Assembly (NCBI RefSeq): GCF_015687155.1
Contig: NZ_JADPQF010000001.1
Coordinates: 310,001-374,000 of the forward strand
DNA: 64,000 bases
Reading direction: 5' to 3'
Source of the DNA: Aliikangiella sp. G2MR2-5
GTDB taxonomy: Bacteria; Pseudomonadota; Gammaproteobacteria; Enterobacterales; Kangiellaceae
Numbering within the stretch: the first letter of the stretch is position 1; the number at the start of each line of letters is the position of its first letter. The position numbers and the translations under genes are program-made. Under the pieces are notes generated by a model. The model had not been told where the DNA came from. It did no database searches and saw only the letters and a program-made list of their open reading frames with translations. Positions 45,281 to 64,000 of this stretch are shown piece by piece.

Positions 45281-46919
45281 GATAAAACTCCTTATCGAGG
45301 TAGACTCCAGAAAAATGCACACCACCAGCAGGAATAATGTGAAAATTTTTAACTCTTGGGTTGATTATCGCATGTTGAGTTGCGTGGGCAATAGGAACCC
45401 ATGGTGAATAATATTTAAAGAGTTCTTGTGCTTCCCGATAATGATTGACTCGCTTTCTGAGCTTGGTCTGGGAGCGAGCCAGATGAATCAGCCGACTAAA
45501 ATCTGGTTCGCACCAGTTCGAAGCGTTGGTTCCGGTAATAGTTCCGCCACAGCTTAGTAGTGGAGTAAAAAAGTTGTCGGGATCGCCATTATCTCCGATC
45601 CATCCCATCAAAGCGGAGTGATGTTGTCCCTGCCTCACCTTATTTAAAAAGGTACCATATTCATAGGACTCTATTTTTACTCGAACACCGATAGCTTTCA
45701 GGTCTTCCTGTATGAGTTCAGCCATTTTTTTGGCGTTAGGGTTGTATGCTCTTTGCGCAGACATGGTCCATATTGTCATATCAAAGCCGTCTTCAAAGCC
45801 TGCTTCCTCCAGAAGTTTTCTTGCTATATCCGGCGCATACGGGTAGTCATCAATTGAATCATCATACGACCACATATTTGGGGGAATCGGGTTTTTAGCC
45901 GTTGTAGCCGTCTGTTTGTAGACTGCTTTAATGATGGCCTTTTTATCAATTGCGTGGTTTAGAGCTAACCTCACTTTTAAGCTATTAAAAGGTGTTTTTA
46001 ACATATTCATTGCCAAATAGGAAACATTTAGCCCGGCACTACTTAATACTTTGGCGTATTTAAAATTATGCGCTGAACTGATATGTACAGGTAAAGGGTT
46101 GGCCATTACATCGCATTCTCCAGCCACGAGGCGGGCAAATCTTAATGAAGGATCAGGGGTTATTGCGAAAACCAGATTTTCCAGTTTTTCTTTTCCTCGC
46201 CAATAGTCAGAGTGTGCTCGGTACCTGATATAGGCGTCAGGTTGATACCTCACTAATTTAAAGGGACCTGTTCCTACAGGTTTAAGGTCAAGTTGTTCAG
46301 GTGCGCCCTCAGAGAGGAGTTCGGCTGCGTACTCTTCTGAAAGAATTGAGGCAAAGTCCATGGCTAGAGTTGCTAAAAAAGGACTTTCAGCTCGAGAGAG
46401 ATAGAACTTTACCTGATATTCACTAATTTTCTCGATTTTTTGAATTAGGCTGGTTAACTCCATCGACTCAAAGTAGTTGTACGACAGGTTTGAAACTTTA
46501 TGAAAAGGATGCGTCTTGTCTCGTTGGCGTTCAAAGCTGAAAATAACATCATCTGCGTTAAAATCGCGTGAAGGTACAAAATATTCTGTTTGGTGGAGCT
46601 TAACTCCTTTTCGTAGATTGAAAGTATACTCTCTGCCATCACTTGATATCTGCCAACTTTCAGCCAGTCCTGGTTCAATATAGGTTGTACCCTGTCTAAA
46701 CTCTACCAGCCTGTTGTATAGCGTACGCGAAGAGGCATCAAAGGTTGTTCCTGAGGTCGACAGTTGAGGATTGAAGGTTTGAGGACTGCCTTCGGAGCAA
46801 TAAACCAGCACATTTTCTTTTACATCTGTTTTTTTCTGATACTGACACCCGGAAGCTAAAAGCACGGTGAAATAAATCACACCAAGGGCCTTTATCCTGT
46901 TTGGTAACTTCTTAATCAC
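45273..46919 (-). CDS. sapA: Periplasmic peptide-binding lipoprotein SapA
   Basis: This 548-residue substrate-binding protein (family 5, DppA/OppA-like) has a lipobox LLASGC with Cys25, so it is a lipoprotein anchored by lipidation. The mature part has EGSPQTFNPQLSTSGTTFDA, WQISSDGREYTFNLRKGVKLH, KPVGTGPFKLVRYQPD and AINHAIDKKAI-like (LALNHAIDKKAII) motifs of the family. In enterics SapA binds peptides and, in some pathogens, gives resistance to antimicrobial peptides. Substrate choice here is unknown. E. coli SapA is not predicted as a lipoprotein by memory, so the anchor may be lineage-specific. It starts six bases after pspF. Confidence 0.9.
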   Translation of the reverse strand: MIKKLPNRIKALGVIYFTVLLASGCQYQKKTDVKENVLVYCSEGSPQTFNPQLSTSGTTFDASSRTLYNRLVEFRQGTTYIEPGLAESWQISSDGREYTFNLRKGVKLHQTEYFVPSRDFNADDVIFSFERQRDKTHPFHKVSNLSYNYFESMELTSLIQKIEKISEYQVKFYLSRAESPFLATLAMDFASILSEEYAAELLSEGAPEQLDLKPVGTGPFKLVRYQPDAYIRYRAHSDYWRGKEKLENLVFAITPDPSLRFARLVAGECDVMANPLPVHISSAHNFKYAKVLSSAGLNVSYLAMNMLKTPFNSLKVRLALNHAIDKKAIIKAVYKQTATTAKNPIPPNMWSYDDSIDDYPYAPDIARKLLEEAGFEDGFDMTIWTMSAQRAYNPNAKKMAELIQEDLKAIGVRVKIESYEYGTFLNKVRQGQHHSALMGWIGDNGDPDNFFTPLLSCGGTITGTNASNWCEPDFSRLIHLARSQTKLRKRVNHYREAQELFKYYSPWVPIAHATQHAIINPRVKNFHIIPAGGVHFSGVYLDKEFYRD

Positions 46920-49934: not shown

Positions 49935-50313
49935 AGCTTTTCTCCGCTCGTCATCCCCCTCGACTACTTTAATTGTGCCCCGGTTAAGGGGCTATTTTAT
50001 TGCAAAAACAAATAAATATTTGCAATATTCACTTTCAAATACTGATATATCTACCTATTTAAGTGTGCATTTTACCAAATTCCAGTGATTGTTTTTTGTT
50101 CAAAAACCTAGCTCAAGCCCCCGAAAACAGCCGTTTTTACTCAAAATAAAATGTGTAACTAAGTGTTGACCTTCGAGAACAATTGCGGTTAGTATCTGGG
50201 TTGGCAGATCAGGCCTAATGGCCAAAAGATGCGAGTTTTGGACTTTTTGAGCATAACAAAAAGCTGGAATGTCGCTTTAATAACAACCTCCATGACAACC
50301 AGGGAGAAATAAA
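49935..50313. other. Intergenic region before the large TonB receptor
   Basis: The 379 bases hold the pspC terminator and then AT-rich sequence. TTGACC (50166-50171) and TAGTAT (50090s region, 50190-50195) with an 18-base spacer are a candidate promoter for the receptor. The ribosome binding site GGGAG lies just before the TTG start. No other gene or repeat was seen. Confidence 0.45.
49977..49998 (+). terminator. Probable terminator after pspC
   Basis: GCCCC (49977-49981) pairs with GGGGC (49988-49992) around GGTTAA and is followed by TATTTTAT. The stem is short but GC-only. Confidence 0.65.
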
Positions 50314-53121
50314 TTGAGTACATTAGATAAACGCAATCCAATTGCGAAAGCAGTAAAGTACGCTTTACTTGCTGGAACAGCGGTGACTGCTTACTCTGCT
50401 CCTTCAGCTTTTGCAGCTGAAGAAGAAGCTGAAGAGCAAAAAATCACTATCACAGGTTCTCGCCTAAAAAGAACTGACGTTGAAACTGCACAGCCTGTAA
50501 CAATCATTACTCGTGCAGAGTTAGACATGTCTGGTGACACAAGTGTTGCTGATGCATTGAGAAATACTTCTGCAAATAGCTTCGGTTCTTGGAAAGGTCA
50601 ATCAGGCTACGGCGCTGGTGCAACTGGTTCTGCAGAAATTGACTTACGTGGTGTTGGCGCTACATTAGTACTTGTTGACGGACGTCGTATGCCTGGTGCA
50701 GGTTATGACGGTGGTGCTACTCAGAACTTAAACAATATCCCATTAGCTATCGTAGAGCGTATTGAAATCCTACGTGGCGGTGCATCTGCAATCTATGGTT
50801 CTGATGCTGTTGCTGGTGTTGTTAACATTATTACTCGTTCTGAAGTTCAAGGCGGAAGCATTTCTGCTACTTTCGAAAAGCGTGGAATTGACGACGGTAA
50901 GAAAACTAAATACGAATTTGCTGCTGGTGTATCTGGCGACAAAGGAAGCATGTTAGTTGTTGCTGAGCACACAAGCATTGACGAACTTGCTGACAACGAA
51001 GTATCTGGCTTCGACAATGGTGTTTCTTGGTACTCTCCTGTTGCAAATGCACAATACTACAGTGCTGCTTCATGGACTGCCAATTTTAATGCATACGATG
51101 GTACTCAGTTAAGAGACGACGGTACTCCGTACGTAGACTTTGTAGATGCTGACGGCGATCCTTCTCCATATACTGCTGCAGAGCAATATGCTGACGATCA
51201 AAATAACTGGGCGTCTGAGTGGGATGCTGGCCTTTGTGGAAGCGTAGCTAATACTGTTCCTCAACCAACTGCAACTGCTCTTGGTGGACGTTGTGGATAC
51301 GCTTACTCAAATGTAACCTGGTTGTACCCACAACAAGAAATGGATTCTATCTGGACTAAGTTCTCTTATGAGCTGACTTCTGATATCGAGTTCAATGCAC
51401 GTTTGGGCTATGTTGGTACCAAAACTCACTCACGTTACGCGCCAACTCCAGTTTCTACTAACCTGGTAACTATGGCTCCATCACATCCTGGTGTTCCTGC
51501 AGCTACAGCTGCTGATGCTTGGTCTAACCTGTACTTGTACCACAGATCTGCATTATTGGGTAATCGTGATGCTTACTTCAATGACAGCTCTTTCGATATG
51601 GTATTTGGTCTTGAAGGTTTCTTGGACGTAGGTGCTGGACTTGATTGGACCGCTAACTACCAGCGTACTTTGAAAGACGAAACTTTGTTCAACCATAACC
51701 TGATCAATGACGTTGCATTCCAACAAGGTCTTGATGACGAGTTGTTTGACCCGTTCAATACTGGTTATTTGAACGGTGGTACGCCTTTCACTACTGCTGA
51801 GTGGGAAGAGCATGCTATTGACTTCTACAAAAGTGTTGCGCATACCGGAATTTTCGAAGTTCATCAGGTAAAAGACATCATCGACGGAAACATCGGTGGG
51901 GAAATCATGTCTAATGACACTATGTCTGTTGGATTTGTTGTTGGTGGCGAGTTTGAGCAAACTGATTTCACTCAGATTTCTGACCCAGAATCAGGCCAAG
52001 GCTTCATTTCTGGTGGTTCAGGTGGTGACGATGTTTTCGCATCACGTGACCGTACTTCTCTATACACTGAGTTCGCATTCAACTTCGACTTCGGTTTAGA
52101 AGTTAGTGCAGCTGCTCGTTACGATAAATACGAACAGTCTGGTGATGTTGGTTTAGATGCTCTTGCTGATAAAGAATTCTCTGATACAACTACAATGATT
52201 AGTGCGTTGTACAGACCTACTGATGACTTGTTGATTCGTGCAGTAACTGGTGAAGCTTTCCGTGCACCTACTATGCCTGAGTTGTTTGCAAGCGCGTCAT
52301 TCGGTTTCCCATCTGGTTACGATTACTACTACTGTGATACTCTAGGTAACCCAGGTAATGATGCAACTTACTGTAATGCGACTAACCAACCTCAGCATCT
52401 TGCTTGGTACGGTGGTAACATCCTGCTTGAGTCTGAAAATGCCGATACTGATAACTTCGGTGTTGTCTGGAACGCAACTGACGACTGGTCTCTTGAGTTA
52501 GGCTGGTACAGAATCGATTACTTCGACAAAATCGTTAATATCTCTATCAACGAATTAATGTTGTTGGATCAAGTTGCTGGTGGTACTTCTACTGCGGTAA
52601 CTCGTGGTAGCGACGGCAAAATCACTTCTATCCAGGCTGGTACTGCTAACTTAGCACGTCAAAAAACCTCTGGTTGGGATTTTGCGACTGCTTATAACAT
52701 CGAAACAGATATCGGTAAGTTTGTTGTCAAAGCTGATTTGACTCGTGTTATCGATTATATGAGTGTTGATTCTGACGGAAATGGTCGTGATGCAACTGGT
52801 TTGCTTGACCTTCCAGAAATGAAAGCTAATGCTCAAGTTAGCTGGTCTAAAGATGATTACTATGCTGCATGGCGTATGAACTTCATCAAAGGACAAGATG
52901 CTACTTCTGCTAGCTATGTAGATATCGACAACGTTATGACTCATAACATCCAGTTCGGTATGTACACTCCTTGGAACGGTGAAGCTGTAATCGGTATCCG
53001 TAATCTAACTGATGAAGATACTCAGTACTACACTGGTAGTGCAGGATGGAGAAACTACAATACGACTCTTTATAGTCCAGAAGGTCGTACTCTCTTCTTC
53101 CGTTACACTCAATCTTTCTAA
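50314..53121 (+). CDS. Large TonB-dependent receptor
   Basis: The 935-residue receptor has a signal peptide with a basic start (~1-35, ending AFAAEEE), a plug domain (~45-190, TGSRLKRTDVETAQPVTIITRAEL, GATLVLVDGRRM, VERIEILRGGASAIYGSDAVAGVVNIITR) and a large barrel ending LFFRYTQSF, the aromatic C-terminal insertion signal. The N-terminus resembles the group of proteobacterial receptors used for complex organic nutrients. The start is TTG with GGGAG upstream. Codons are more uniform and preferred-type than those of its neighbours (my impression by eye), suggesting high expression. Its own strong terminator separates it from the downstream TPR gene. The substrate is unknown; a peptide-like ligand would fit the neighbouring peptidase and TPR enzymes. 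Confidence 0.92.
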   Translation: MSTLDKRNPIAKAVKYALLAGTAVTAYSAPSAFAAEEEAEEQKITITGSRLKRTDVETAQPVTIITRAELDMSGDTSVADALRNTSANSFGSWKGQSGYGAGATGSAEIDLRGVGATLVLVDGRRMPGAGYDGGATQNLNNIPLAIVERIEILRGGASAIYGSDAVAGVVNIITRSEVQGGSISATFEKRGIDDGKKTKYEFAAGVSGDKGSMLVVAEHTSIDELADNEVSGFDNGVSWYSPVANAQYYSAASWTANFNAYDGTQLRDDGTPYVDFVDADGDPSPYTAAEQYADDQNNWASEWDAGLCGSVANTVPQPTATALGGRCGYAYSNVTWLYPQQEMDSIWTKFSYELTSDIEFNARLGYVGTKTHSRYAPTPVSTNLVTMAPSHPGVPAATAADAWSNLYLYHRSALLGNRDAYFNDSSFDMVFGLEGFLDVGAGLDWTANYQRTLKDETLFNHNLINDVAFQQGLDDELFDPFNTGYLNGGTPFTTAEWEEHAIDFYKSVAHTGIFEVHQVKDIIDGNIGGEIMSNDTMSVGFVVGGEFEQTDFTQISDPESGQGFISGGSGGDDVFASRDRTSLYTEFAFNFDFGLEVSAAARYDKYEQSGDVGLDALADKEFSDTTTMISALYRPTDDLLIRAVTGEAFRAPTMPELFASASFGFPSGYDYYYCDTLGNPGNDATYCNATNQPQHLAWYGGNILLESENADTDNFGVVWNATDDWSLELGWYRIDYFDKIVNISINELMLLDQVAGGTSTAVTRGSDGKITSIQAGTANLARQKTSGWDFATAYNIETDIGKFVVKADLTRVIDYMSVDSDGNGRDATGLLDLPEMKANAQVSWSKDDYYAAWRMNFIKGQDATSASYVDIDNVMTHNIQFGMYTPWNGEAVIGIRNLTDEDTQYYTGSAGWRNYNTTLYSPEGRTLFFRYTQSF

Positions 53122-53136
53122 TATAGAAAGACATAT

Positions 53137-53166
53137 AAAAACGGCGGTTTAACCGCCGTTTTTTTT
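53137..53166 (+). terminator. Strong terminator after the large TonB receptor
   Basis: A near-perfect palindrome, AAAAACGGCGGT and its complement around a three-base loop (centred on 53150), runs into at least eight T residues ending near 53166. Confidence 0.9.
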
Positions 53167-53208
53167 GCTTGTAACAATGTAAATTTAGAATAATAAATAT
53201 AAGTACTT

Positions 53209-55020
53209 ATGATGGCTTCAGGACATAATCGGTCACTTTTAAATGCTAATCGGCTGATGCAGTCGGGATATTACCGAGAAGCATTATCTATTCTTAAGCA
53301 GTTATTGAAGAACATTCCTGCCGATACAAAGTTATGGAACATGAGTGGAGTTGCTGCGTGCTTTTCCGGAGATTTTGCTTATGCCGAAAAAGCTTTTAAA
53401 AAGGCTCTTAAACTATCTCCTAATTTTATCGACGGTCACATCAGTTTAGGCAACCTGTATGTACAAAAAAATGAACTAGACAGCGCGATTAAAGCATACA
53501 AAAAGGGATTAACAATCAAGCCCGACTCACTGGAGTTAAATTTAAAATTAGCGCATGCCTACAAGAAAAAAAGTAGCTACTCTGCAGCATTGAAATATTT
53601 TAAGAAAGCTGGTGTTCAAGATGAAAATAATCTCGATATTAAATTTAACATAGCTGCAATATATCAAGTGCAGGATAAAGTAGAAGCAGCTCAAAATATC
53701 TATCAGGATATTCTTGATTTAGAACCGAATTTTACACCCGCACTACATAATCTTGCGATCATATATAGAAATTGTTTAAAGTTTAAAGAGTCAGTTGAAC
53801 TTTTAGAGAGAGCTTTAAAACATACCAGTAAGCCGGCCAATATTTATCAGACTTTAGGAAGTGTTCATGCTTCGATGGGAGAGGCCACTAAAGCACAGGA
53901 TTATTTTGAAAAGGCTATTGAACAAGAACCTCTCAATGCTTCTCATCACCACTGGTTGAACCAACTCTTATGGGTTACAAGAAGTGATAGCTTCCTATCT
54001 TCCTACAAAAAAATAATTAAACAGAATCCTCAAGCTTATCCGCTAAAACGGGAGCTTGCTTACAAACTCATTTTGGCCAAGGAGTATGATCAAGCTCAGG
54101 AAATTCTTGAATGGCTTATATTAAATGATAAGAGTGAGCCAATGAACTTTAAGTTGCTTGGTACGGTCTACCGGAAAAAAAGACTATTCGAAGAGGCAAT
54201 CGAGTCTCACCGACAAGCGGTAAAGTTGAGTCCTTCAACACTTGTTTATCAGGAAGAGTTAGTAACTTCACTACTTTCAAACGCTGAAGCCGAGTCAGCT
54301 CTAAAGCGCGTAAATCAACTTATTAAGCGAGATTCATCTCATCAGGGCTATTGGGCTTTAAAAGCTACCGCATTAAGAATTTTAGGTAACGAAGAATATT
54401 ATGACCTTTATGATTTTGAGAAGCTTGTTCTTCGTGAATTTATTGAGGTTCCACAAGGCTATAAAGATCTAAATGCGTTCAATCAGAATTTGTTTGATCA
54501 TTTGGAAAGATTCCATAGTAGTGTACAACAGCCTCTGGATCAGTCGCTAATGAATGGGACTCAATCCGTCGGAAATCTATTTGATACGGATATACCGGTA
54601 ATCAAGCAATTAAGAGAGCAGTTTGATAAGAAAATGCTCGAATTCATATCTAAATTTCCCAAAAGCAATACCCACCCTGTTTTCTCAAGAAATACAGGTA
54701 TGTTCAGGTATACCGGAGCATGGTCTGTAATCTTAAAACGAGAAGGATTTCATAATAATCACTTTCATTCGTTAGGCTGGTATAGTGGGCCTTATTATGT
54801 GCAGGTTCCCGATATAGTCGATAAGTCTGAAAAACAGGAAGGCTGGGTCAAGTTTGGTCAACCAGGAATTGAATGTGTTTTGGATTTACCTCCAGAGCTT
54901 TTTGTAAAACCTGAGCAAGGATTAATGGTACGTTTTCCTTCCTATATGTGGCATGGAACAATACCGTTTGAGTCAGAACAGAGTCGGATTACAGTAGCAC
55001 TTGATCTTGAGCCCGTCTGA
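53209..55020 (+). CDS. TPR protein with C-terminal 2OG-Fe(II) oxygenase-like domain
   Basis: The first ~385 residues are about ten TPR units, for example AEKAFKKALKLSPNFIDGHISLGNLYVQKNELDSAIKAYKKG. The last ~125 residues resemble the 2OG-Fe(II) oxygenase group fused to TPRs (PF13759-like): His515/His518/His520 in HNNHFHSLGWYSGPYYVQVPD, a WH at His582 (MWHGTIPF), and Arg593 in SRITVALDLEPV, which would bind 2-oxoglutarate. The usual HxD aspartate is not obvious, so HNNH/HFH may be a variant metal site. TPRs suggest that it docks a protein or peptide substrate. It is upstream of a TPR-sulfotransferase with similar build. Function in the receptor system is inferred from location. Confidence 0.75.
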   Translation: MMASGHNRSLLNANRLMQSGYYREALSILKQLLKNIPADTKLWNMSGVAACFSGDFAYAEKAFKKALKLSPNFIDGHISLGNLYVQKNELDSAIKAYKKGLTIKPDSLELNLKLAHAYKKKSSYSAALKYFKKAGVQDENNLDIKFNIAAIYQVQDKVEAAQNIYQDILDLEPNFTPALHNLAIIYRNCLKFKESVELLERALKHTSKPANIYQTLGSVHASMGEATKAQDYFEKAIEQEPLNASHHHWLNQLLWVTRSDSFLSSYKKIIKQNPQAYPLKRELAYKLILAKEYDQAQEILEWLILNDKSEPMNFKLLGTVYRKKRLFEEAIESHRQAVKLSPSTLVYQEELVTSLLSNAEAESALKRVNQLIKRDSSHQGYWALKATALRILGNEEYYDLYDFEKLVLREFIEVPQGYKDLNAFNQNLFDHLERFHSSVQQPLDQSLMNGTQSVGNLFDTDIPVIKQLREQFDKKMLEFISKFPKSNTHPVFSRNTGMFRYTGAWSVILKREGFHNNHFHSLGWYSGPYYVQVPDIVDKSEKQEGWVKFGQPGIECVLDLPPELFVKPEQGLMVRFPSYMWHGTIPFESEQSRITVALDLEPV

Positions 55021-55088
55021 TGGTGGTATTTTGCTAGTCAATTGTTGAGTACCTTTTTTGAACAATTTTTTAACTGAAATTAATCTCA

Positions 55089-56732
55089 ATGCATTTTAAT
55101 AAAACAGAAGAAGTTAATCGTTTACTTGCTTCAGGACAAAATAAAGAAGCATTTCATACTATATATGATTATGTTTCTAACTATGAAACTCACGAAAGCT
55201 TAGAGAATAGTGCAATAGATTTACTCATTCAAACGAGTCTATTGTTAGGAGATAAACAGAACATTATTTTAGCTCTTGATATTTTATCGAAAAGAAACGG
55301 CTTGACCGTCCAACAAATAGAACTCACGGCAAATACCTATTTTAAATTGAATCAATTAGATAAGTCTTACGAGCAACTCAAAAAAATTTTAGAGATTACG
55401 CCGGATAATGAAAAGTATTTATGCAAAACAGGGATCGTTTTATATCACCTGAAGGATTATGAGCGAGCAAAGTCTTTCTTCGAAAAAATTTCTTGCGCTA
55501 AGAAACACACAAAAGAAATTATTGAATGTTATAAGTATTTGGCTTTAATTCATAAAGAGTTAAGAAATGAAGCTAAGTCGATTGAGCTTTTGGAGAGTCT
55601 ATTAGAGCTTCAACCGGCGGATAAGTTGGTAAAACATGAGTTAGCTGGATTGTATCTTTCTTTGGGTAACACTAGCCGAGCTATTAATATATATGAGCAA
55701 ATAGTAGCGCAAGATCCTTCCATGGATTTATCCTGGACAAGATTGGCCTATGCAAAAAAAATTGATTCACATAGTGATCCAATAATAAAGAAATTAAAGC
55801 GAAGAGTTCGGTCTGCTAATGTAAAACCACTGGATAAAGAGGGATTGTATTTTGCTTTGGGTAAAGTCTTTGATGATCTTAAAGATTACAGAAAGGCTTT
55901 GGACTATTATCGAAGTGCCAATGAAATGATCTTAAATAGACGAGGACGATTTTCGAAAGAGAATTTTAACAGTTTCATGGAGAAAATTTTCGAGTTGTCG
56001 TCAACTGACATTTCTCAGGGCTTTCCTGAAATGGAAAGAGAGATTTTGTTTGTAATTGGCCACCCTCGATCTGGCTCAACGCTAATAGAGCATATAGTCG
56101 GTGCTCATAGCCAGGTAGAGGCTCTTGGAGAGTTAAATTATTTTCCTGAGCTAATCAGGCAATATGTTGGTAAAGAGCTATTGGTCGACAGCATTGCGCT
56201 TGAAAAACTACACAAACAATATGAAGCATTGTTTTCTACTTTATCGTCACCGCAGTGCATGGTGATTGATAAGCGTCCAGACAACTGGATGTTTATTGGA
56301 TTAATAAAGAAAATATTCCCTAGAGCAAAGTTTATCGTATCTAATAGAAATATTGCTGACATAACGCTTTCTACCTATTTTCAACATCTGGATAGCTTGG
56401 TTAATTATTCATCTGACTTTCAAAGTATTAGAGAATATGACTCAGTTCTTCAAAAAGCTTTGGCTCGATGGAAAGAAGAGCACGGTGATGCCATCCTTGA
56501 AATTAACTATGAAGATGTTGTGGATGATTGCAAGACTCAAACCGAAAAGATGTTGTCTTTCCTTGGCCTGGATTATCAGGAGCAGTGTCTTAACTTTCAT
56601 CAAAGTACAACTTATGCTCGAACGGCAAGTACAGTACAAGTGAAGAAGCCCCTATATCGATCATCGGTAAATCGTATTGATAATTATAGGCCTTTCCTGA
56701 GCGACGCAGAATTGGCGGCGATTGAACCTTGA
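55089..56732 (+). CDS. TPR-sulfotransferase family protein (first copy)
   Basis: The 547-residue protein combines ~7 N-terminal TPR units (~1-285) with a PAPS-dependent sulfotransferase domain (~315-547). The 5'-phosphosulfate loop GHPRSGST is at 324-331, a likely catalytic Glu at 348 (ALGELNYF), and the 3'-phosphate site includes Arg420 and Ser428 in FIVSNRNIADITLSTYFQHL. TPR-sulfotransferases often act on protein, peptide or small-molecule hydroxyls; tyrosine sulfation is one possibility. The gene is 69 bases after the oxygenase gene and ends at a strong bidirectional terminator. Paralogous to the protein at 58923. Confidence 0.87.
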   Translation: MHFNKTEEVNRLLASGQNKEAFHTIYDYVSNYETHESLENSAIDLLIQTSLLLGDKQNIILALDILSKRNGLTVQQIELTANTYFKLNQLDKSYEQLKKILEITPDNEKYLCKTGIVLYHLKDYERAKSFFEKISCAKKHTKEIIECYKYLALIHKELRNEAKSIELLESLLELQPADKLVKHELAGLYLSLGNTSRAINIYEQIVAQDPSMDLSWTRLAYAKKIDSHSDPIIKKLKRRVRSANVKPLDKEGLYFALGKVFDDLKDYRKALDYYRSANEMILNRRGRFSKENFNSFMEKIFELSSTDISQGFPEMEREILFVIGHPRSGSTLIEHIVGAHSQVEALGELNYFPELIRQYVGKELLVDSIALEKLHKQYEALFSTLSSPQCMVIDKRPDNWMFIGLIKKIFPRAKFIVSNRNIADITLSTYFQHLDSLVNYSSDFQSIREYDSVLQKALARWKEEHGDAILEINYEDVVDDCKTQTEKMLSFLGLDYQEQCLNFHQSTTYARTASTVQVKKPLYRSSVNRIDNYRPFLSDAELAAIEP

Positions 56733-56768
56733 CTAGGAAATACTTCGTGTAATTTTGAGCAGTTAGAT

Positions 56769-56799
56769 AAAAAAAGCCTCTTATACAAGAGGCTTTTTT
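56769..56799. terminator. Bidirectional terminator between sulfotransferase and S9 peptidase genes
   Basis: AAAAAGCCTCTT (56771-56782) pairs with AAGAGGCTTTTT around a four-base loop. A-tract and T-tract flank both sides, so it can end transcripts from both directions; the neighbouring genes are convergent. Confidence 0.9.
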
Positions 56800-56812
56800 G
56801 ACTGGCTGGTTC

Positions 56813-58759
56813 TTATTTCAGATGTTTCGCAAAGAACTTTTCCATAGCAACATAGAAATCAATTCTGTTTTTAATTTTCTGATAGCCATGACCTTCGTCA
56901 CGTACCATGGACTCATATGGTATTTTGGCTTTGTCCAGAGCATCAATTAAAACATCATACTGTTCCATCGGAACTCGGACATCTTCTCGACCGTGTGCGA
57001 TGAATAGTGCTGCTTTAATCTTTTCAACATTTCTAGCAGGAGAGTTAGCTCTGAGCTCATCTTTATCTTCGCCTAATACATGTTGCAGGAACCTAACACC
57101 ACTTTCTCTAGTTGGGATGTCTCCAGCAGTGAACATAGTTTCTAGATCATATACGCCGACATAACCTAGACCACACTTATACAAATCAGGCTCTTTGACA
57201 ACGCCCATAAGCGTCGCGTAGCCACCATAGCTTCCACCATAGATACAAATCTTTTCTGGGTTTGCAATACCGGTTTCGATTGCCCAAAGAGTAGCGTCGG
57301 TAACATCGTCCTGCATTTCTCTACCCCATTTACGATAGCCAGACTCTTCAAATGCTCTACCGTAGCCGCCAGAACCTCTGAAATTCATTTGCAGTACTGC
57401 ATATCCACGGTTAGCGAGAAACTGTACATCTGGGTTGTAACCCCAGTTATCTCTTGGTCCATGAGGGCCACCATGAGGATTAATGATTAGTGGTAAGTTT
57501 TTATCCTGGCCCTTAGGTAGTGTCAGGTAGCCCTGAATTTTTACACCATCTCTAGCTGTATACTCGATAGGAAGCATTTGTGCCATTTTTTTAGGGTCAA
57601 TCCAGGAAGACCTGCTTGCAAGATACTTCAAAGCGTTATCTTTAAAGTTAAACAAATAAAAGTCGCCAGGGTTTATATCGCTGGATACTGAAACAACAGC
57701 CTGATCTCCATTTTCTGTGTAGCTGGTAAAGCCCACATCAGAACCTGGAAATGCTTTCATCAGCGCCGCTAGAGCTTTGGACTCTCGGTGTTCTTTGTCC
57801 AGAAAAACAACTTCGTTATAATTTGGGCTGTAGCGGAAGCCAAGTATCGATTCTTCTTCTGAAGTTATAAGTCCTCCAACATCGACCAGTTCACTTGAAA
57901 AGACCTTAGTCTTTTCGCCACTAATCAGGTTATAGGCATAAAGCTCGGATGTTTTATTTTTGGACTCTTTGTCACTTGTAATGTAGGCAACGGTACCATC
58001 TTTGGATAAACCTCTGAATCCTAGCCTGGCATTTGTATGTTCAGAAAGCGCAGACTCTTTCCAGAAGTCCTTTCCGGGCTCCTTGATGTAGATCTTGTAT
58101 TCACCCCAACCAAATTTTTCTTTGTCAGTAATGTATTGAACTGCAACACGCATTTCATCATTACTGTCCAGTAAGACGTTACTTACGTCTTCTTTCGGCT
58201 GGCCACTTAACACTCGGACTTTTCCCGTATAAATGTTTAGCTTGGCAGCTTTAACGCTAGATGTCTCATGAACAGGGTCATAGTCTGCAGAGTGAGATTT
58301 AATGATCAGAACATTCTTTGGATCTTCTTCATACAGGGAAGCCAGATTGTAGCCAGATCTTTGAGTTGTAAAAATCTGCTTTCTATGTGTTCCGTCAATG
58401 TTGGCCGCGTATAGGTGCCGTGCACCGCCCTTTTTATCCAGGTATCCGACACGCTTTTGAACCTCCATCAGGACTCGTTCATTGTTACCCCAATGGAAAC
58501 CCAAAACCTGTTTCCATTCGCCGAACTCAAACATTGCAGTGATTTCTTTGGATTTTCTATTCAGAACGGCAAGTTTGACTTGGGTACCATCTCGATAGTT
58601 AAAAGCTAGATGCTTTCCATCTGGAGATATTTTGATATTCATATATTGAGCATGCTTAGCAAAGTGCTCAACGGGGATAAGTGATTGGCTGTCTTTCGCA
58701 TTAACGAGATTGCTCGTAAAAACGAAAAGCAGCACAATGAGAATGCGGTTTAAATTCAT
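56813..58759 (-). CDS. Secreted S9 family prolyl oligopeptidase-like peptidase
   Basis: The 648-residue protein has a signal peptide (~1-21, FTSNLVNA), a beta-propeller (~30-380, with repeated ISPDGKHLAFNYRDG and WGNNERVLMEVQ motifs) and an alpha/beta-hydrolase domain. Catalytic residues are Ser510 (GGSYGGYATLMG), Asp593 (HGREDVRVPMEQ) and His624 (DEGHGYQ). The S9 family cleaves short peptides, often after proline or as acylaminoacyl/dipeptidyl peptidases. The presence of a signal peptide puts it in the periplasm or outside. It is convergent with the first sulfotransferase gene and divergent from the second, which suggests that both genes' products serve the same peptide. No lipobox was seen. 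Confidence 0.9.
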   Translation of the reverse strand: MNLNRILIVLLFVFTSNLVNAKDSQSLIPVEHFAKHAQYMNIKISPDGKHLAFNYRDGTQVKLAVLNRKSKEITAMFEFGEWKQVLGFHWGNNERVLMEVQKRVGYLDKKGGARHLYAANIDGTHRKQIFTTQRSGYNLASLYEEDPKNVLIIKSHSADYDPVHETSSVKAAKLNIYTGKVRVLSGQPKEDVSNVLLDSNDEMRVAVQYITDKEKFGWGEYKIYIKEPGKDFWKESALSEHTNARLGFRGLSKDGTVAYITSDKESKNKTSELYAYNLISGEKTKVFSSELVDVGGLITSEEESILGFRYSPNYNEVVFLDKEHRESKALAALMKAFPGSDVGFTSYTENGDQAVVSVSSDINPGDFYLFNFKDNALKYLASRSSWIDPKKMAQMLPIEYTARDGVKIQGYLTLPKGQDKNLPLIINPHGGPHGPRDNWGYNPDVQFLANRGYAVLQMNFRGSGGYGRAFEESGYRKWGREMQDDVTDATLWAIETGIANPEKICIYGGSYGGYATLMGVVKEPDLYKCGLGYVGVYDLETMFTAGDIPTRESGVRFLQHVLGEDKDELRANSPARNVEKIKAALFIAHGREDVRVPMEQYDVLIDALDKAKIPYESMVRDEGHGYQKIKNRIDFYVAMEKFFAKHLK

Positions 58760-58922
58760 TATCTAATTCCCTGGTTTGACATAAGTTTTTTATTGTTGAG
58801 GCCCGACAGGCCTTCATTTAGACATATAGTGTATTAGATTTACATATATGTTAAATTCCACCGTCCATTATCAGGAATAATCAGCATAGTTCAAGGTGAA
58901 TTTTGACAATTAAGGCATTGGA

Positions 58923-60584
58923 ATGGCGGATTTTAAAGAAGAATTAAAAAAGGTAGAGGCTCTTGCTTTGGGGGGAGAACGTCCTGCAGCTGAGGCCAGA
59001 CTTCTGCAGTTGATAGATAATAACCCGGTAAACTCATCGGTGTTGAGGTTTGCCATAGTATTTTACGGAAATTTGAAACAATTCGAAAAGGCCATTGAAA
59101 TCGCTTTGTCCCTGCTAAAGATTGAAAAGTATGACTTTAACCTGTTTTTCGGCAAGCTCTGTAATGGTTTGGTCTCCCATGGTCAGATCGGGGTAGCTAT
59201 TAGCGCAATAAAGTCTTTTTTAGCATTAAAACAAGAGGAAGCTGAAGCTCATTTCTATCTTGGTATGCTGTACAAGAAGCAGGGCACTTACGATAAAGCC
59301 GTTTCAGAATTTGAGTTAGCTGTAAAATCTGACTACAGGGACCAATGTGAATGCTATCTACTGATAGCGTTAATGTATGTTGAGCTTAGAATGGAGGAAA
59401 AGGCAATCTTCTATCTTCATAAGGTTCTGGACATCAAGCCGCAGCATTACGAAGCACTATTTAATTTGGCTTCATTGGAACAGGCAAAAGGAAACAAGGA
59501 CAAAGCAATTGAGCTATATCAACAAGTAATCAAACTAAACCCAAAGCTTGTTGAGGCGCTTGTTCGAGTTATCTACGCAAAAAAAATAAAAGAAAGCGAT
59601 CATGAGCTTTTAAAAATGATAAATCGTCGATTTAGAAGCTCACAAACAACTATGCTCGACAAGGAAAGTCTGAAATATGCGGAAGGAAAAGCCTTAGACG
59701 ATCTGAAGCAATATGATAAAGCGTTTGCCGCTTATGAGTATGCAAATAAACTTAATGCCGAGCGTATTCAGAAATACGAGCCTAAAACGATTGAACAATT
59801 TGTCAAACTCTCAGTTGAAGTAATTTCAAAAGACTGGTTAGGAAAACATCATGAACTTGAAGACGTTAAACCAGTATTTATTGTTGGTCATTTCCGTTCG
59901 GGATCAACTCTCGTGGAACAGATTTTATCTCGGCATAGTCAAATTACGGCGCTAGGGGAAATAGAATATTTTACCCGCCACTACTATGAAAATTTTAACC
60001 GCTATTGGGAAAAGCTTAAACCTGCTATTAACAATGTTTTTCTTTCCGGTTGCGCAGAAGGATATATTCATTTGATTCAATCGATGAATATAAATACCCA
60101 ATGCTTTACCGACAAGAGACCAGAAAATATTCTCTTCATGGGATTAATAAAAAAGCTATTTCCAGATGCAAAGTTCATCCATACCACCCGAAATTTATTA
60201 GACAATGGGCTTTCGGTTTATTTTCAACAATTGAATGACTTATCTACGTTTTCGACTTCGTTGGAAGATTTTTTTCACTATAACCAGCAATGTGATTCAT
60301 TAATGGCCCATTGGCGAAGTCTGTTTGGAGAGGACATTCATGAGGTGCCTTACGAACAAATGGTCAATGCTCCTGAAGACACCGCTCAAAATATGGTAAA
60401 AAATATTGGCTTGGAGTGGGAAAGTGATTGCATGAATTTTAAGACTAGCGAGCGATTTGTCAGAACAGCCAGTATTTCACAGGTACGTAAAGAGGTTTAT
60501 ACAACGTCAGTTAGGCGTTGGAAAAACTATGAACCATATTTGAGTGATAAGTTAAAACTTCTATTTCAGTCTCATATGGTTTAA
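58923..60584 (+). CDS. TPR-sulfotransferase family protein (second copy)
   Basis: The 553-residue protein is a paralogue of that at 55089. TPR units (~1-285; for example EAHFYLGMLYKKQGTYDKAVSEFELAV) precede a sulfotransferase domain (~318-553). The 5'-phosphosulfate loop is GHFRSGST at 322-329, a likely catalytic Glu at 346 (ALGEIEYF), and the 3'-phosphate motif TTRNLLDNGLSVYFQQL places Arg423 and Ser431. The interior diverges from the first copy, so they likely act on different substrates or at different steps. There is no detectable terminator directly after it; ~430 bases separate it from the DUF3450 operon. Confidence 0.87.
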   Translation: MADFKEELKKVEALALGGERPAAEARLLQLIDNNPVNSSVLRFAIVFYGNLKQFEKAIEIALSLLKIEKYDFNLFFGKLCNGLVSHGQIGVAISAIKSFLALKQEEAEAHFYLGMLYKKQGTYDKAVSEFELAVKSDYRDQCECYLLIALMYVELRMEEKAIFYLHKVLDIKPQHYEALFNLASLEQAKGNKDKAIELYQQVIKLNPKLVEALVRVIYAKKIKESDHELLKMINRRFRSSQTTMLDKESLKYAEGKALDDLKQYDKAFAAYEYANKLNAERIQKYEPKTIEQFVKLSVEVISKDWLGKHHELEDVKPVFIVGHFRSGSTLVEQILSRHSQITALGEIEYFTRHYYENFNRYWEKLKPAINNVFLSGCAEGYIHLIQSMNINTQCFTDKRPENILFMGLIKKLFPDAKFIHTTRNLLDNGLSVYFQQLNDLSTFSTSLEDFFHYNQQCDSLMAHWRSLFGEDIHEVPYEQMVNAPEDTAQNMVKNIGLEWESDCMNFKTSERFVRTASISQVRKEVYTTSVRRWKNYEPYLSDKLKLLFQSHMV

Positions 60585-61015
60585 AAGTATGGATTAAAAG
60601 TTGAATTTGACATACTGGTCAGATGTGTTGCTGTATTAATTGAGATAGTTAACCACCTTCCATTTGGACAATCCATGTTGGTCGATTTGTTGAGAAATCT
60701 ACGTCAAATTTCGTATTTGGTGCGATTATTCACGGAAAATTCACGAAATGGTCTGATTTTAATGACATCTTTTAAAGTGTAAAAGCCGGTTTGAGTCGAT
60801 ACTAATCTTTAGACATAATCCATTGACTCGTTCTTTCATAATGTTTATAGTCGGCCTTATCGTGCGTGAGGTGCAGACTCTCTCGCACTTTAAGGATTTT
60901 TAACCAAGTTTAGATAATAATTAAACCCTTAATCGACTTGGGTCCGTTTGTAGCACAAAAGTGTTGCGAATAATGCCGTTTTTATTTTCAACCCTAAAAA
61001 TAATTAGGAAGTCAC
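60585..61015. other. Long leader and promoter region of the DUF3450 operon
   Basis: The 431-base region holds no gene but contains a consensus-like promoter (60823-60851) and a leader of about 158 bases with a hairpin (60862-60870 with 60880-60888, one mismatch). A second possible pairing joins CCAAGT near 60904 with ACTTGG near 60938. The leader is unusually long for this genome's plain operons in the window. Confidence 0.55.
60823..60851 (+). promoter_or_regulatory. Promoter of the DUF3450-TolQ/ExbB operon
   Basis: TTGACT (60823-60828), a 17-base spacer and TATAGT (60846-60851) form a near-consensus sigma-70 promoter, ~165 bases before the DUF3450 ATG. No repressor site such as a Fur box was recognised nearby. 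Confidence 0.75.
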
Positions 61016-61795
61016 ATGCTTAATCGCTATAAATTTACTGTTAATAAAGCAGCAGTCTTAGGATTGTTTGCTACATTCTGGATGGGGAGTGCAGCAGCAA
61101 ACCCTGTGGTTGATCAGTCTATTAAGATTGAAAAACAAATAACAAAGGCTTCAGCGTCTTCTCAGAAGAAGATTGACCGATATGCCGAAACAACTATTGA
61201 ACTCGCTGCCGAATATAAAAATACATTACGCATTATCGAAAGCTTGAAGATATACAACAATCAGCTTGAAAATTTGATTCAGTCACAAGAGTCAGAGATG
61301 GTATCTATTCAGAATCAGATGGATACAATTGATACCACTGAGCGCGGCGTTATTCCATTAATGAATGAAATGATTGCTTCTCTTGAAGCGTTCGTTGAAC
61401 TGGACATTCCATTTGACCTGGAAAAGCGTCAAGACAGAGTTGAAGCCTTAAAAAACAATATGTTAAGAGCAGATATCTCTAATTCTGAAAAGTACAGAAA
61501 AATTCTAGAAGCCTACCAAACCGAAATTGCTTACGGTGAATCTGTATCAACATATCAAGGAGATATTGATGCTGCCGATGGAAGCAAAATTCGCGTAGAT
61601 TTTATGAGATTTGGTCGTGTTATGTTGGTATTCCTTTCTTTAGATGGTCAGTCGGCAGGTTATTTCAATGCTGAAACTCGTCAATGGGAAGAACTTGACA
61701 AAGAATATATTCGCGGTATCGAGTTAGCTATCAAAATGGCTAATAAACAAGCTGCGCCAGAACTAATCAAATTACCTGTACCAACAGCTAAGTAA
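61016..61795 (+). CDS. DUF3450 family periplasmic protein
   Basis: The 259-residue protein has a signal peptide (~1-28, cut near SAAA) and then a long coiled coil (~40-115, with LRIIESLKIYNNQLENLIQSQESEM) and an alpha/beta C-terminal part with EIAYGESVSTYQGDI and FMRFGRVMLVFLSLDGQSAGYF. These match DUF3450 proteins, which sit upstream of TolQ/ExbB-ExbD-TonB clusters in Vibrio, Shewanella and relatives. Its role is probably periplasmic coupling of the TonB2-type motor, but that is based on position and not demonstrated. GGAAG precedes the ATG. It is the first gene of the operon. Confidence 0.88.
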   Translation: MLNRYKFTVNKAAVLGLFATFWMGSAAANPVVDQSIKIEKQITKASASSQKKIDRYAETTIELAAEYKNTLRIIESLKIYNNQLENLIQSQESEMVSIQNQMDTIDTTERGVIPLMNEMIASLEAFVELDIPFDLEKRQDRVEALKNNMLRADISNSEKYRKILEAYQTEIAYGESVSTYQGDIDAADGSKIRVDFMRFGRVMLVFLSLDGQSAGYFNAETRQWEELDKEYIRGIELAIKMANKQAAPELIKLPVPTAK

Positions 61796-61808
61796 GGGGC
61801 TAATTAAA

Positions 61809-63188
61809 ATGAAATTCAAAAATATCCTTATTGCCGCCATGTTGGCAGGCGCTGCAGTAAATGTTTCTGCTGCCGAGCAGAAAGATATTGGCGCGGTTAA
61901 GAAGCCTGCTGCACAAACACTTGATGAACTTTTGCAAATGGTTAAGCAAAATAAGATTCGTCAAACTAATGTTAACAAAGAGCGCGAAGCCATTTTCTTA
62001 AGAGACAGAAATAATCAAAGAAGTCTTTTGAATCAGGCACTTGCAGAGAAGCAAGCTGAAGAAGAGCGTATGAATCGCTTAAAAGCTCAGTACGAAGCTA
62101 ACGAGAAAAAGCTATCTGAGCTTGAAGATGAACTTCACCTGAAAGCTGGTACATTGGGCGAGATGGTCGGTGTTGTACGTCAAGTTGCTGGTGACACTGC
62201 TTCTCGTTTACGTCGTTCCATTGTTAGTGCTCAGTTACCTGAACGCTATACTGCATTGGAAACTTTAGCTCAAGCAAAAGAATTTCCTCAAATACCTGAA
62301 ATCAGAAGCCTTTGGGAAGCGATGCAAACAGAGATGACTGAACAGGGTAAGGTAATCAAATTCTCTGGACAGATTATCAATACTGAAGGCGCTCCAGAGC
62401 CTAGAGATATGACCCGAGTTGGTGTATTTAATATCGTTTCTCAAGGTGAATACTTGGTGTTCGACCACGAATCTCAGGATATCAAGCAGTTGACTCGTCA
62501 GCCGGTAGGCCGCTACTTAAGCATGGTAGAGCCTTTTATCAGTGCTAACGGTACATATGCTCCTCTAGCCTTGGACCCTTCACGTGGAAATATCCTTACT
62601 CAGGAAGTTAAGCGTGAAAGCTGGCCTGAGCGTGTTATGAATTACGCTGGACCTGTAGGTGCTGCGATTGGTGTCGTCTTAGCTCTTGGCTTATTGTTAG
62701 TTCTTGAAAGACTATTCACTCTATTGAGCTTAAGAGGCAAGATGCGTGCACAGGCTAAATCAAGTACACCAGGTAATAACCCGCTTGGTCGTATCATGGC
62801 TGTATATCTGGCAAATAAAGATGACGATGTTGAAAACTTAGAGCTTAAGCTAGATGAAGCTGTGCTTAAGGAAACTCCTCGTATAGAGCGTGGTATCACA
62901 GTAATCAAGGTCTTCGCAGCGGTAGCTCCACTTATGGGGCTTCTTGGAACCGTAACCGGTATGATCGAAACCTTCCAGTCGATTACTCTCTACGGTACGG
63001 GCGACCCGAAAATTATGGCTGGCGGTATTTCGTCTGCGTTGATAACAACCGTATTGGGAATTGTTGCAGCATTACCATTAATTCTTACTCACAGTGTCGT
63101 ATCAGGTATCTCTAAAGGCTTGATTCACACACTTGAAGAGCAAAGCACTGGCTTAATCGCTCAGCATGAAGAAGAGGCGGGAGCATAA
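61809..63188 (+). CDS. MotA/TolQ/ExbB proton channel family protein (long, TtpC-like)
   Basis: The 459-residue protein has a signal peptide (~1-21), a periplasmic coiled coil (~40-115), a globular part and then the MotA/TolQ/ExbB core (~275-450) with transmembrane segments around 280-302, 365-390 and 405-430. The signature LLGTVTGMIETFQSITLYGTGDPKIMAGGISSALITT is typical. Long forms with a periplasmic domain are known as TtpC, part of the TonB2 system of Vibrio. It starts 13 bases after the DUF3450 gene and leads into exbB. Confidence 0.9.
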   Translation: MKFKNILIAAMLAGAAVNVSAAEQKDIGAVKKPAAQTLDELLQMVKQNKIRQTNVNKEREAIFLRDRNNQRSLLNQALAEKQAEEERMNRLKAQYEANEKKLSELEDELHLKAGTLGEMVGVVRQVAGDTASRLRRSIVSAQLPERYTALETLAQAKEFPQIPEIRSLWEAMQTEMTEQGKVIKFSGQIINTEGAPEPRDMTRVGVFNIVSQGEYLVFDHESQDIKQLTRQPVGRYLSMVEPFISANGTYAPLALDPSRGNILTQEVKRESWPERVMNYAGPVGAAIGVVLALGLLLVLERLFTLLSLRGKMRAQAKSSTPGNNPLGRIMAVYLANKDDDVENLELKLDEAVLKETPRIERGITVIKVFAAVAPLMGLLGTVTGMIETFQSITLYGTGDPKIMAGGISSALITTVLGIVAALPLILTHSVVSGISKGLIHTLEEQSTGLIAQHEEEAGA

Positions 63189-63191
63189 TTA

Positions 63192-63722
63192 ATGCTATTT
63201 TTTCAAGACCTATATGACACAGTTTCTCGCTTCTTTGAAGCGGGAGGCGATGTATTATGGTTTATCGCTGCGGCGCTTATTGTCATGTGGACAATGATTA
63301 TTGAGCGCCTCTGGTATTTTTCTTATACCTACCCTAAGCAGGCTCGACTTCTAATAGCAAAGTGGGAGTCTCGCAAGGATACTACGTCTTGGCGAGCTCA
63401 TCGCATCCGTGAAGCCTGGATTTCTCAGATGAATGAAAAGCTTCATTCGGGGCTGTTGCTTATTAAGACCGTTGTTGCTATTTGTCCGATGATAGGACTC
63501 CTTGGTACGGTAACCGGGATGGTAGGTGTATTTGAAGTCATGGTATTAGCAGGTACAGGAAATGCTCGAATGATGGCTGCTGGTATTACTCAAGCGACAA
63601 TCCCGACAATGGCGGGAATGGTTGCTGCGTTGTCTGGACTGTTTATTAGTTCAAGACTTGAGTTTGAGTATTCAGCAAATGTCCATGCACAAGAGTTAGC
63701 TGACCATATGCCACATCACTAG
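63192..63722 (+). CDS. exbB: ExbB-like biopolymer transport protein
   Basis: The 176-residue protein has an N-terminal helix and the core ExbB channel (LLIKTVVAICPMIGLLGTVTGMVGVFEVMVLAGTGNARMMAAGITQATIPTMAGMVAALSGLF), the second proton-channel subunit of the motor. It lies three bases after the long TolQ/ExbB-like gene, which argues for translational coupling. The length is short for ExbB (~240), as in TonB2-type systems. Confidence 0.9.
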   Translation: MLFFQDLYDTVSRFFEAGGDVLWFIAAALIVMWTMIIERLWYFSYTYPKQARLLIAKWESRKDTTSWRAHRIREAWISQMNEKLHSGLLLIKTVVAICPMIGLLGTVTGMVGVFEVMVLAGTGNARMMAAGITQATIPTMAGMVAALSGLFISSRLEFEYSANVHAQELADHMPHH

Positions 63723-63739
63723 CGAAGGAATCATATTTC

Positions 63740-64000
63740 ATGGCTAAAAAGAGTTTAAAACCAAAAGAGGAAGAAGCGGCGATTGATATGACACCGATGC
63801 TCGACATCGTGTTTATCATGCTCATTTTCTTCATCGTTACTACCTCTTTTGTAAAAGAAGCTGGTGTAGATGTTATGAAACCAACAGCTGCAACAGCCGT
63901 GAAGAAACCGAAAGCCAATATTTTTGTTGGGATAACTAAAGAAGGCGAAGTCTTCATGTTGAAACGAAAGGTCGAAAAGGACGATGTTCGCTCGACTATC
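63740..64000 (+). CDS. exbD: ExbD/TolR-like biopolymer transport protein, partial
   Basis: The gene is cut by the window end; 87 codons are visible. It opens MAKKSLKPKEEEAAIDMTPMLDIVF, with Asp22 in the transmembrane helix as the conserved proton-carrying residue of ExbD/TolR. The helix is followed by the periplasmic domain. The order DUF3450-TtpC-exbB-exbD predicts tonB and a TPR gene beyond the edge, but this is not seen. Confidence 0.93.
   Translation, partial: MAKKSLKPKEEEAAIDMTPMLDIVFIMLIFFIVTTSFVKEAGVDVMKPTAATAVKKPKANIFVGITKEGEVFMLKRKVEKDDVRSTI

Follow-up and report, generated by a model that had tools for sequence, protein, structure and literature searches.

A TonB-dependent receptor gene coupled to TPR-fused sulfotransferases and a 2OG oxygenase in Aliikangiella: a possible receptor-tailoring cassette

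Why should the gene of an outer-membrane receptor stand beside genes of enzymes that look suited to modifying proteins? The question is raised by the last 14 kb of a 64,000-nucleotide stretch of the genome of Aliikangiella sp. G2MR2-5 (hereafter the window; contig NZ_JADPQF010000001.1, positions 310,001 to 374,000). Here the gene of a TonB-dependent receptor (TBDR) is followed by those of a tetratricopeptide repeat (TPR) protein carrying a 2-oxoglutarate (2OG)-Fe(II) oxygenase domain (TPR-2OG), two TPR-fused sulfotransferases (TPR-ST 1 and TPR-ST 2), an S9 peptidase and a TonB2-type operon (Table 1). A preliminary description had joined these genes into a single system for the uptake, cleavage and/or sulfation of a peptide-like ligand, with a TonB motor of its own; gene finding and family scans recovered all the genes that it named, close to where it had placed them. 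The source genome (G000; G and L numbers denote the genomes and loci compared) is 5.0 Mb in size, and its family includes many genomes of 2.3-2.9 Mb.

Conservation of the receptor-enzyme core

The TBDR is genetically coupled to a pair of TPR-fused sulfotransferases resembling protein-tyrosine sulfotransferases (TPST) and to a PF13759 2OG oxygenase, and in the source family and several marine Gammaproteobacteria this set adjoins a TonB2-type energizer. An alignment of TPR-2OG was scanned against named genomes and the best 80 of 90 loci were analysed; they include near-duplicates (e.g. three from Alteromonas and three from Pseudoalteromonas) and, again, the genomes G015, G004 and G042 described below, and many are cut by contig ends. 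With TBDRs and TPR-STs counted on all reading frames, GC-rich loci included, a TBDR was present in 51 of the 80 loci, at less than 500 bp from TPR-2OG in 31 and less than 3 kb in 48, a TPR-ST in 30, and both in 26. TBDR coverage around TPR-2OG was 27-32% at 1-3 kb against 4% at 6-10 kb, and distances among the receptors correlate with those among the TPR-2OG proteins (Mantel r 0.70, permutation p 0.0005, 50 pairs), a correlation to which host ancestry contributes. Other enzymes recur at these loci: a methyltransferase in 15 and a small 2OG oxygenase in 10, every one with a TBDR, as well as an AspH-like gene in 10 (the three scanned all match PF05118), which at L070 is accompanied by a 2OG-FeII_Oxy_3 protein.

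All four of the closest receptor relatives (L056, L057, L058 and L059, the last being the L050 locus; 56-70% identity) keep TBDR, TPR-2OG and TPR-ST together. The gene order in G015, from another genus of the same family, is TBDR, TPR-2OG, PF03567 sulfotransferase, a redoxin protein that weakly matches a dioxygenase, TPR-ST, S9 peptidase, DUF3450, TtpC and ExbB, where the stretch ends, and its TBDR, TPR-2OG and S9 peptidase are 65%, 43% and 64% identical to those of the window. A TBDR, a 2OG oxygenase, a methyltransferase, two TPR-STs, TPR-2OG and a complete TonB2 operon are found in G004, of the same genus as the source, and a TBDR, TPR-2OG and the TonB2 operon in G042, of another family. Records that carry the core include those of the marine species Colwellia chukchiensis (L082) and Pseudidiomarina planktonica (L066). 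Judged by these relatives, co-occurrence of the core genes exceeds chance. The earlier proposal that they belong together is borne out, since they are not scattered across relatives, and the cassette of a receptor and protein-modifying enzymes is confirmed as real and conserved.

Relatives of TPR-2OG also occur in cyanobacteria, both filamentous (Okeania, Trichodesmium, Microcoleaceae) and Prochlorococcus, at eight loci with no TBDR in the stretch (L100, L102, L103, L107, L109, L110, L112 and L129).

Predicted chemistry of the TPR enzymes

When compared as a profile with solved structures, the sulfotransferase domain matched TPST1 and TPST2 first (6e-21 to 3.7e-17), followed by CurM (3.8e-12), an olefin-synthase domain (5e-8) and SULTs (4e-7 or weaker). 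AlphaFold2 (AF2) models of TPR-ST 2 and TPR-2OG, with pLDDT confidence scores of 90.9 and 95.6, were compared by Foldseek and VIA-align, which placed TPST at the top for the catalytic part and O-GlcNAc transferase (OGT), SPINDLY or designed TPRs for the repeats. The VIA-align Z for TPST was 20.4-20.8, with a root-mean-square deviation of 2.5-2.9 over 237-241 residues, against 17.3 for the next sulfotransferase fold and 13.6 for heparan 3-OST, a ranking that leaves room for families not listed. All 23 TPR-ST sequences compared share Arg325, Glu346, Lys398, Arg423 and Ser517, and Ser431, the serine of the 3'-phosphate-binding (3'-PB) motif, is kept in 20 and replaced by Ala in three. The Lys and the late Ser presumably correspond to TPST catalytic residues. 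In the alignment with TPST1, Arg325 is the basic residue of the 5'-phosphosulfate-binding (5'-PSB) motif and Glu346, which pairs with the second Glu of GEET in TPST, holds the position of the catalytic Glu (motif classes as given in PMC9372746). His515, His518, His520, His582 and Arg593 of TPR-2OG are invariant in 33 of 33 sequences, and we infer that these residues bind iron and 2OG. By sequence and fold, TPR-ST looks like a TPST-like protein-tyrosine sulfotransferase, this being its predicted activity; the earlier view of the enzymes as protein- or peptide-modifying agrees with the profile, Foldseek and VIA-align matches.

The sulfate donor, 3'-phosphoadenosine 5'-phosphosulfate (PAPS), is cytoplasmic, and the source genome encodes an adenosine 5'-phosphosulfate (APS) kinase for its formation. 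Neither TPR-2OG nor either TPR-ST has a hydrophobic N-terminus or recognisable signal peptide by hydropathy estimate, the only method applied.

We consider tailoring of the receptor the most likely function of the cassette, and give a chance a little short of even to the reading in which the linked TPR enzymes modify the TBDR before export. The OGT-like TPR superhelices would bind the receptor chain in the cytoplasm while it is still unfolded, TPR-ST would move sulfate from PAPS to one or more receptor tyrosines, for which a Y-D-Y-Y-Y loop (residues 669-673) is the best candidate, and TPR-2OG would hydroxylate another side chain. The modified receptor would then be exported and inserted, its charged loop tuning ligand binding or exposure to phages and toxins; the TonB2-type complex would energize uptake, and the S9 peptidase would be accessory, acting on peptides outside the cytoplasm.

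Sulfotransferase neighbours in other genomes

All four TPR-ST loci of the source genome (five genes) lie inside a TBDR cluster; in three of them TPR-ST follows the receptor within 140 bp, and in the window locus TPR-2OG intervenes. Among 143 evenly drawn gammaproteobacterial genomes, TPR-STs were found in 31, the source genome included. The 30 others hold 52 TPR-ST loci, 13 with a TBDR, which is within 700 bp in 10 (five in one genome), where a rough gene-density model predicts 0.44. TPR-STs also occur in 21 of 25 hand-picked genomes of the wider family and order, where 12 of the 20 best-scoring further loci hold a TBDR, 10 of them within 700 bp. Universal receptor linkage of TPR-STs was rejected on the count of 10 in 52.

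At loci without a TBDR, some neighbours that are large or flagellar were picked by hand and scanned as well. On the same strand as the TPR-ST, an FHA-family (haemagglutinin-like) protein lies 45 bp away at L167 and an inverse autotransporter 80 bp away at L204; on the opposite strand, an autotransporter lies at 168 bp (L178) and a beta-helix protein at 143 bp (L206). An Oar-like barrel protein is two genes away at L207 and an Ig/dockerin protein several genes away at L179, and the neighbour scanned at L205 gave no family match. At L183 (6458-13835) TPR-ST is flanked by flagellin and a FlgL-like gene, all on one strand, and at L185 (3261-9864) it lies beside FliS in a flagellar operon, on the opposite strand, so that flagellin is a candidate for sulfation at both loci. 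Because some TPR-STs adjoin autotransporters, an FHA-like protein or flagellin, none of which imports anything, an exported neighbour, in the window the receptor, is a likelier substrate than an imported ligand; no other evidence points to this as strongly.

The diversity of exported neighbours would also suit enzymes acting on other surface or TonB-system proteins, or on a surface glycan, with receptor proximity reflecting a slot that collects envelope genes. A TPR-ST alone adjoins the TonB2 operon in G012, and heparan-type sulfotransferases share the fold at a lower score. We think this explanation improbable, since receptor-enzyme pairs were found with no TonB2 context seen (L056-L058, and L012-L014 of the source genome) and TBDR and TPR-2OG diverge in a correlated manner.

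The source genome has, in addition, a 5409-residue open frame with two PF13469 sulfotransferase domains (G000:C1:597182-605050; L004, L005), and, at L016, matches to PF13469 that lack a long TPR frame (G000:C1:826000-842000), by eye a surface-polysaccharide-like cluster.

Differing receptors and enzyme kits beside the psp genes

Genes matching PspA, PspC and a sigma-54 activator (Pfam) flank the receptor side of the window cluster. The first gene past pspC is a TBDR in G000, G015, G001, G003 and G021, and the contig of G007 ends within a TBDR. The enzymes that follow form different kits: a methyltransferase, a B12-type radical S-adenosylmethionine (SAM) enzyme, a TPR-ST and a PF00685 sulfotransferase in G001, a methyltransferase and a radical SAM enzyme in G003, and two 2OG oxygenases with a methyltransferase in G021, the radical SAM and methyltransferase matches falling below the NCBIfam curated cut-offs. 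In G000, G015, G001 and G003 the slot ends with the TonB2 operon, which was not found in the stretches fetched from G021. Twelve other receptors (outside G015) are 46-59% identical to the window receptor in the plug and 25-45% in the barrel; better-conserved plugs are common among such receptors. The psp-adjacent slot looks like a place where sister species swap receptors together with differing kits of modifying enzymes.

The high variability of this slot would suit unrelated genes inserted there, their co-occurrence being due to hitch-hiking. We regard this as very improbable, as the core also occurs away from this slot, in genomes labelled Chromatiales or Lysobacterales and in Alphaproteobacteria. 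A broader proposal, which we rate somewhat less likely than not, is that dedicated, gene-linked TPR enzymes of bacteria tailor outer-membrane receptors, and other surface proteins too, while these are still in the cytoplasm (by tyrosine sulfation and hydroxylation, and by methylation in the sister kits) and are exchanged with the receptor at the TonB2-linked slot, as a bacterial counterpart of eukaryotic receptor tyrosine sulfation.

The B12-type radical SAM genes at L286:2202-4739 and L292:15935-18517 (KedN5-like, below the curated cut-off) adjoin a receptor and a methyltransferase at this slot.

A candidate sulfation site in the receptor

At 1e-100, receptor orthologues were found in one of 369 genomes of the class (the query itself) and two of 398 of the phylum (the query included); the receptor is rare, and the loop comparison therefore rests on few sequences. 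Five receptors share SFGFPS[GA]YDYYYCDT[LQ]GN between a strand motif and a GGNP-L-PE return, which reads GGNILLESE in the window receptor. In TBDRs such a strand motif and return usually flank a surface loop, and by this general layout the Y-D-Y-Y-Y loop is probably surface-exposed. Asp670 directly precedes Tyr671 in the window loop, and metazoan TPST substrates mostly carry Asp directly before Tyr, as described in PMC9372746. The receptor homologue of G690, which has no linked enzyme, reads YDTYYC, the Tyr after Asp being lost; the two TPR-STs of this genome each stand beside other receptors.

Companion genes and the peptide alternative

DUF3450, of the TonB2 operon, was present in 15 of the 80 TPR-2OG loci, all with a TBDR, and an S9-like gene in six; S9 also lies beside the TonB2 operon in L050. 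The operon was not seen near L056 or L057 (about 10 kb past TPR-2OG) or L058 (about 3.5 kb past), and since these loci keep the core without it, the TonB2 operon and S9 peptidase are companions rather than core. A promoter-like site of its own precedes the operon, and L050 and L051 share short stretches identical to it. Because of this site and of the L056-L058 result, the receptor's supposed own motor stands as a linkage at the level of the lineage.

The enzymes could alternatively make a ribosomal peptide, for instance a metallophore or signal bearing sulfate or hydroxyl groups; a MacAB-type system would export it, and it would be taken up again through the receptor and TonB2, perhaps also through a nearby oligopeptide importer, as with methanobactin. 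The sulfotransferases, 2OG oxygenases, methyltransferase and B12-type radical SAM enzymes of the locus and its sister slots suit such chemistry, and an S9 peptidase lies in the locus. Beyond the psp genes, at 43422-46919, there is an oligopeptide-type ATP-binding cassette (ABC) importer with a binding protein and permeases (SBP_bac_5, BPD_transp_1, OppC_N), and similar psp-adjacent genes occur in G001, G003 and G007; just past the TonB2 operon lie a MacB permease and an HlyD-type adaptor (Pfam; G000 and G003), with similar open reading frames (ORFs) in G001. It is this importer and exporter that keep the peptide model alive. Yet when the intergenic stretches of the window, L050 and L051 were compared in a limited search, no small ORF proved to be conserved, and the parts that are conserved look promoter- or leader-like. 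Elsewhere the importer and exporter lie outside the core, as far as the loci are labelled, and the position of the importer beyond the psp genes may be ancestral, presumably as in the sap-psp neighbourhood of E. coli; TPR-STs beside autotransporters and flagellin need no ligand. We rate the peptide alternative unlikely. The single uptake, cleavage and sulfation pathway proposed earlier is favoured by the importer and otherwise less supported, given these findings, the lack of signal peptides on the TPR enzymes and the cytoplasmic PAPS.

Besides this importer and exporter, several observations weigh against tailoring of the receptor. No TBDR was found in 29 of the 80 TPR-2OG loci, eight of them cyanobacterial, and in 25 of the 30 other gammaproteobacterial TPR-ST genomes no TPR-ST has a recognised TBDR within 700 bp. 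We know of no outer-membrane receptor documented to be sulfated. Among the receptors compared, the YDYYYC loop is confined to the five closest, its conserved Tyr is not in excess of Phe or Trp, and G690 is a single case, in which an unlinked enzyme could still modify the receptor. Five TPR-ST-linked receptors showed no enrichment in Tyr or acidic-Tyr over 29 others of the same genome (p 0.83 and 0.41), nor did Asp-Tyr density differ between 37 TPR-ST-adjacent receptors and the 29 unlinked ones (p 0.53). Tyr or acidic-Tyr enrichment was rejected as a receptor signature on these composition tests, and a contrast with 19 TPR-2OG-only receptors (p 0.006) was not used, being confounded by taxonomy.

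Comparison with known systems

RaxST of Xanthomonas (PMC6637879, PMC9372746) is likewise a cytoplasmic TPST-like bacterial sulfotransferase acting before export, but its substrate, RaxX, is a small secreted peptide with the RaxAB exporter, whereas here the partner is a TonB receptor. No small precursor gene as in RaxX-RaxSTAB was conserved in the intergenic stretches compared; RaxX itself was not searched for. To our knowledge RaxST has no TPR domain. The catalytic domain comes closest in sequence and fold to eukaryotic TPST1 and TPST2, which share its conserved Arg, Glu, Lys and Ser; unlike them, TPR-ST has no Golgi anchor, is fused to an OGT-like TPR superhelix and has a predicted activity. 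OGT and SPINDLY likewise have a TPR superhelix on the N-terminal side of a catalytic domain that modifies proteins, but the catalytic domains and donors are unrelated.

The Vibrio TonB2 and TonB3 systems share the order ttpB-ttpC-exbB-exbD-tonB-ttpD, and the TonB3 operon begins with an outer-membrane receptor gene, but the accessible text describes no modifying enzymes there (PMC6957404). Vibrio TonB2 is regulated by iron through Fur; no Fur-consensus site was found in the window at up to three mismatches, a threshold that divergent boxes may escape. Methanobactin loci combine a TonB receptor with peptide-modifying enzymes; here a MacAB-type exporter is adjacent, and no precursor was seen in the stretches compared, although no search was aimed at MbnB or MbnC. 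A literature search, thin on subscription journals, returned nothing on TBDR-linked TPR sulfotransferases.

Gene linkage and enzyme families suggest that some bacteria chemically tailor surface receptors before export. If the neighbours are the substrates, the TPR-fused TPST-like family, which is present in 31 of the 143 evenly drawn gammaproteobacterial genomes and whose neighbours include receptors, autotransporters or flagellin, would form an unsuspected layer of control over outer-membrane transport, phage adsorption and surface antigenicity.

Gene models and regulatory signals

Table 1. Features of the receptor-enzyme locus (window positions)
Feature	Position	Strand	Basis or remark
TBDR, PF07715 plug and PF00593 barrel, 935 aa	50314..53121	+	gene finding, family scan
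Codons of receptor residues 669-673 (Y-D-Y-Y-Y), candidate sulfation site	52318..52332	+	invariant loop
Terminator-like hairpin, 12-pair stem, T-run	53137..53163	+	downstream of TBDR gene
TPR-2OG, TPR superhelix fused to PF13759 2OG-Fe(II) oxygenase, 603 aa	53209..55020	+	family scan, AF2 model
TPR-ST 1, TPR and PF13469 sulfotransferase, 547 aa	55089..56732	+	family scan
S9 peptidase, probable signal peptide, 648 aa	56813..58759	-	family scan, hydropathy
TPR-ST 2, TPR and PF13469 sulfotransferase, 553 aa	58923..60584	+	family scan, AF2 model
Promoter-like site TTGACT-17-TATAGT ahead of TonB2-type operon	60823..60851	+	short identical stretches in L050, L051
DUF3450 protein (TtpB-like)	61016..61795	+	family scan; operon order as in PMC6957404
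TtpC-type protein, MotA/TolQ/ExbB domain	61809..63188	+	name based on size and position
ExbB	63192..63722	+	family scan
ExbD, runs past window end; 133 aa in L011	63740..64000	+	TonB and TPR protein next, outside window

The S9 peptidase gene runs opposite to the two TPR-ST genes between which it lies, and the signal peptide ascribed to its product accords with a hydrophobic N-terminus (hydropathy estimate only); the terminator reported after the receptor gene is likewise present. The TonB2 type proposed for the last operon was upheld by the order DUF3450-TtpC-ExbB-ExbD-TonB-TPR protein (window and L011), and the energizer is complete, since TonB and the TPR protein follow ExbD outside the window. 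Promoter-like sites are no commoner in the region than in shuffles, and the one ahead of the TonB2 operon rests on its conservation. Upstream of the receptor, stretches of 25 and 33 nt are nearly identical between the window (50201-50313) and L050, from two genera, and are perhaps a conserved leader or promoter.

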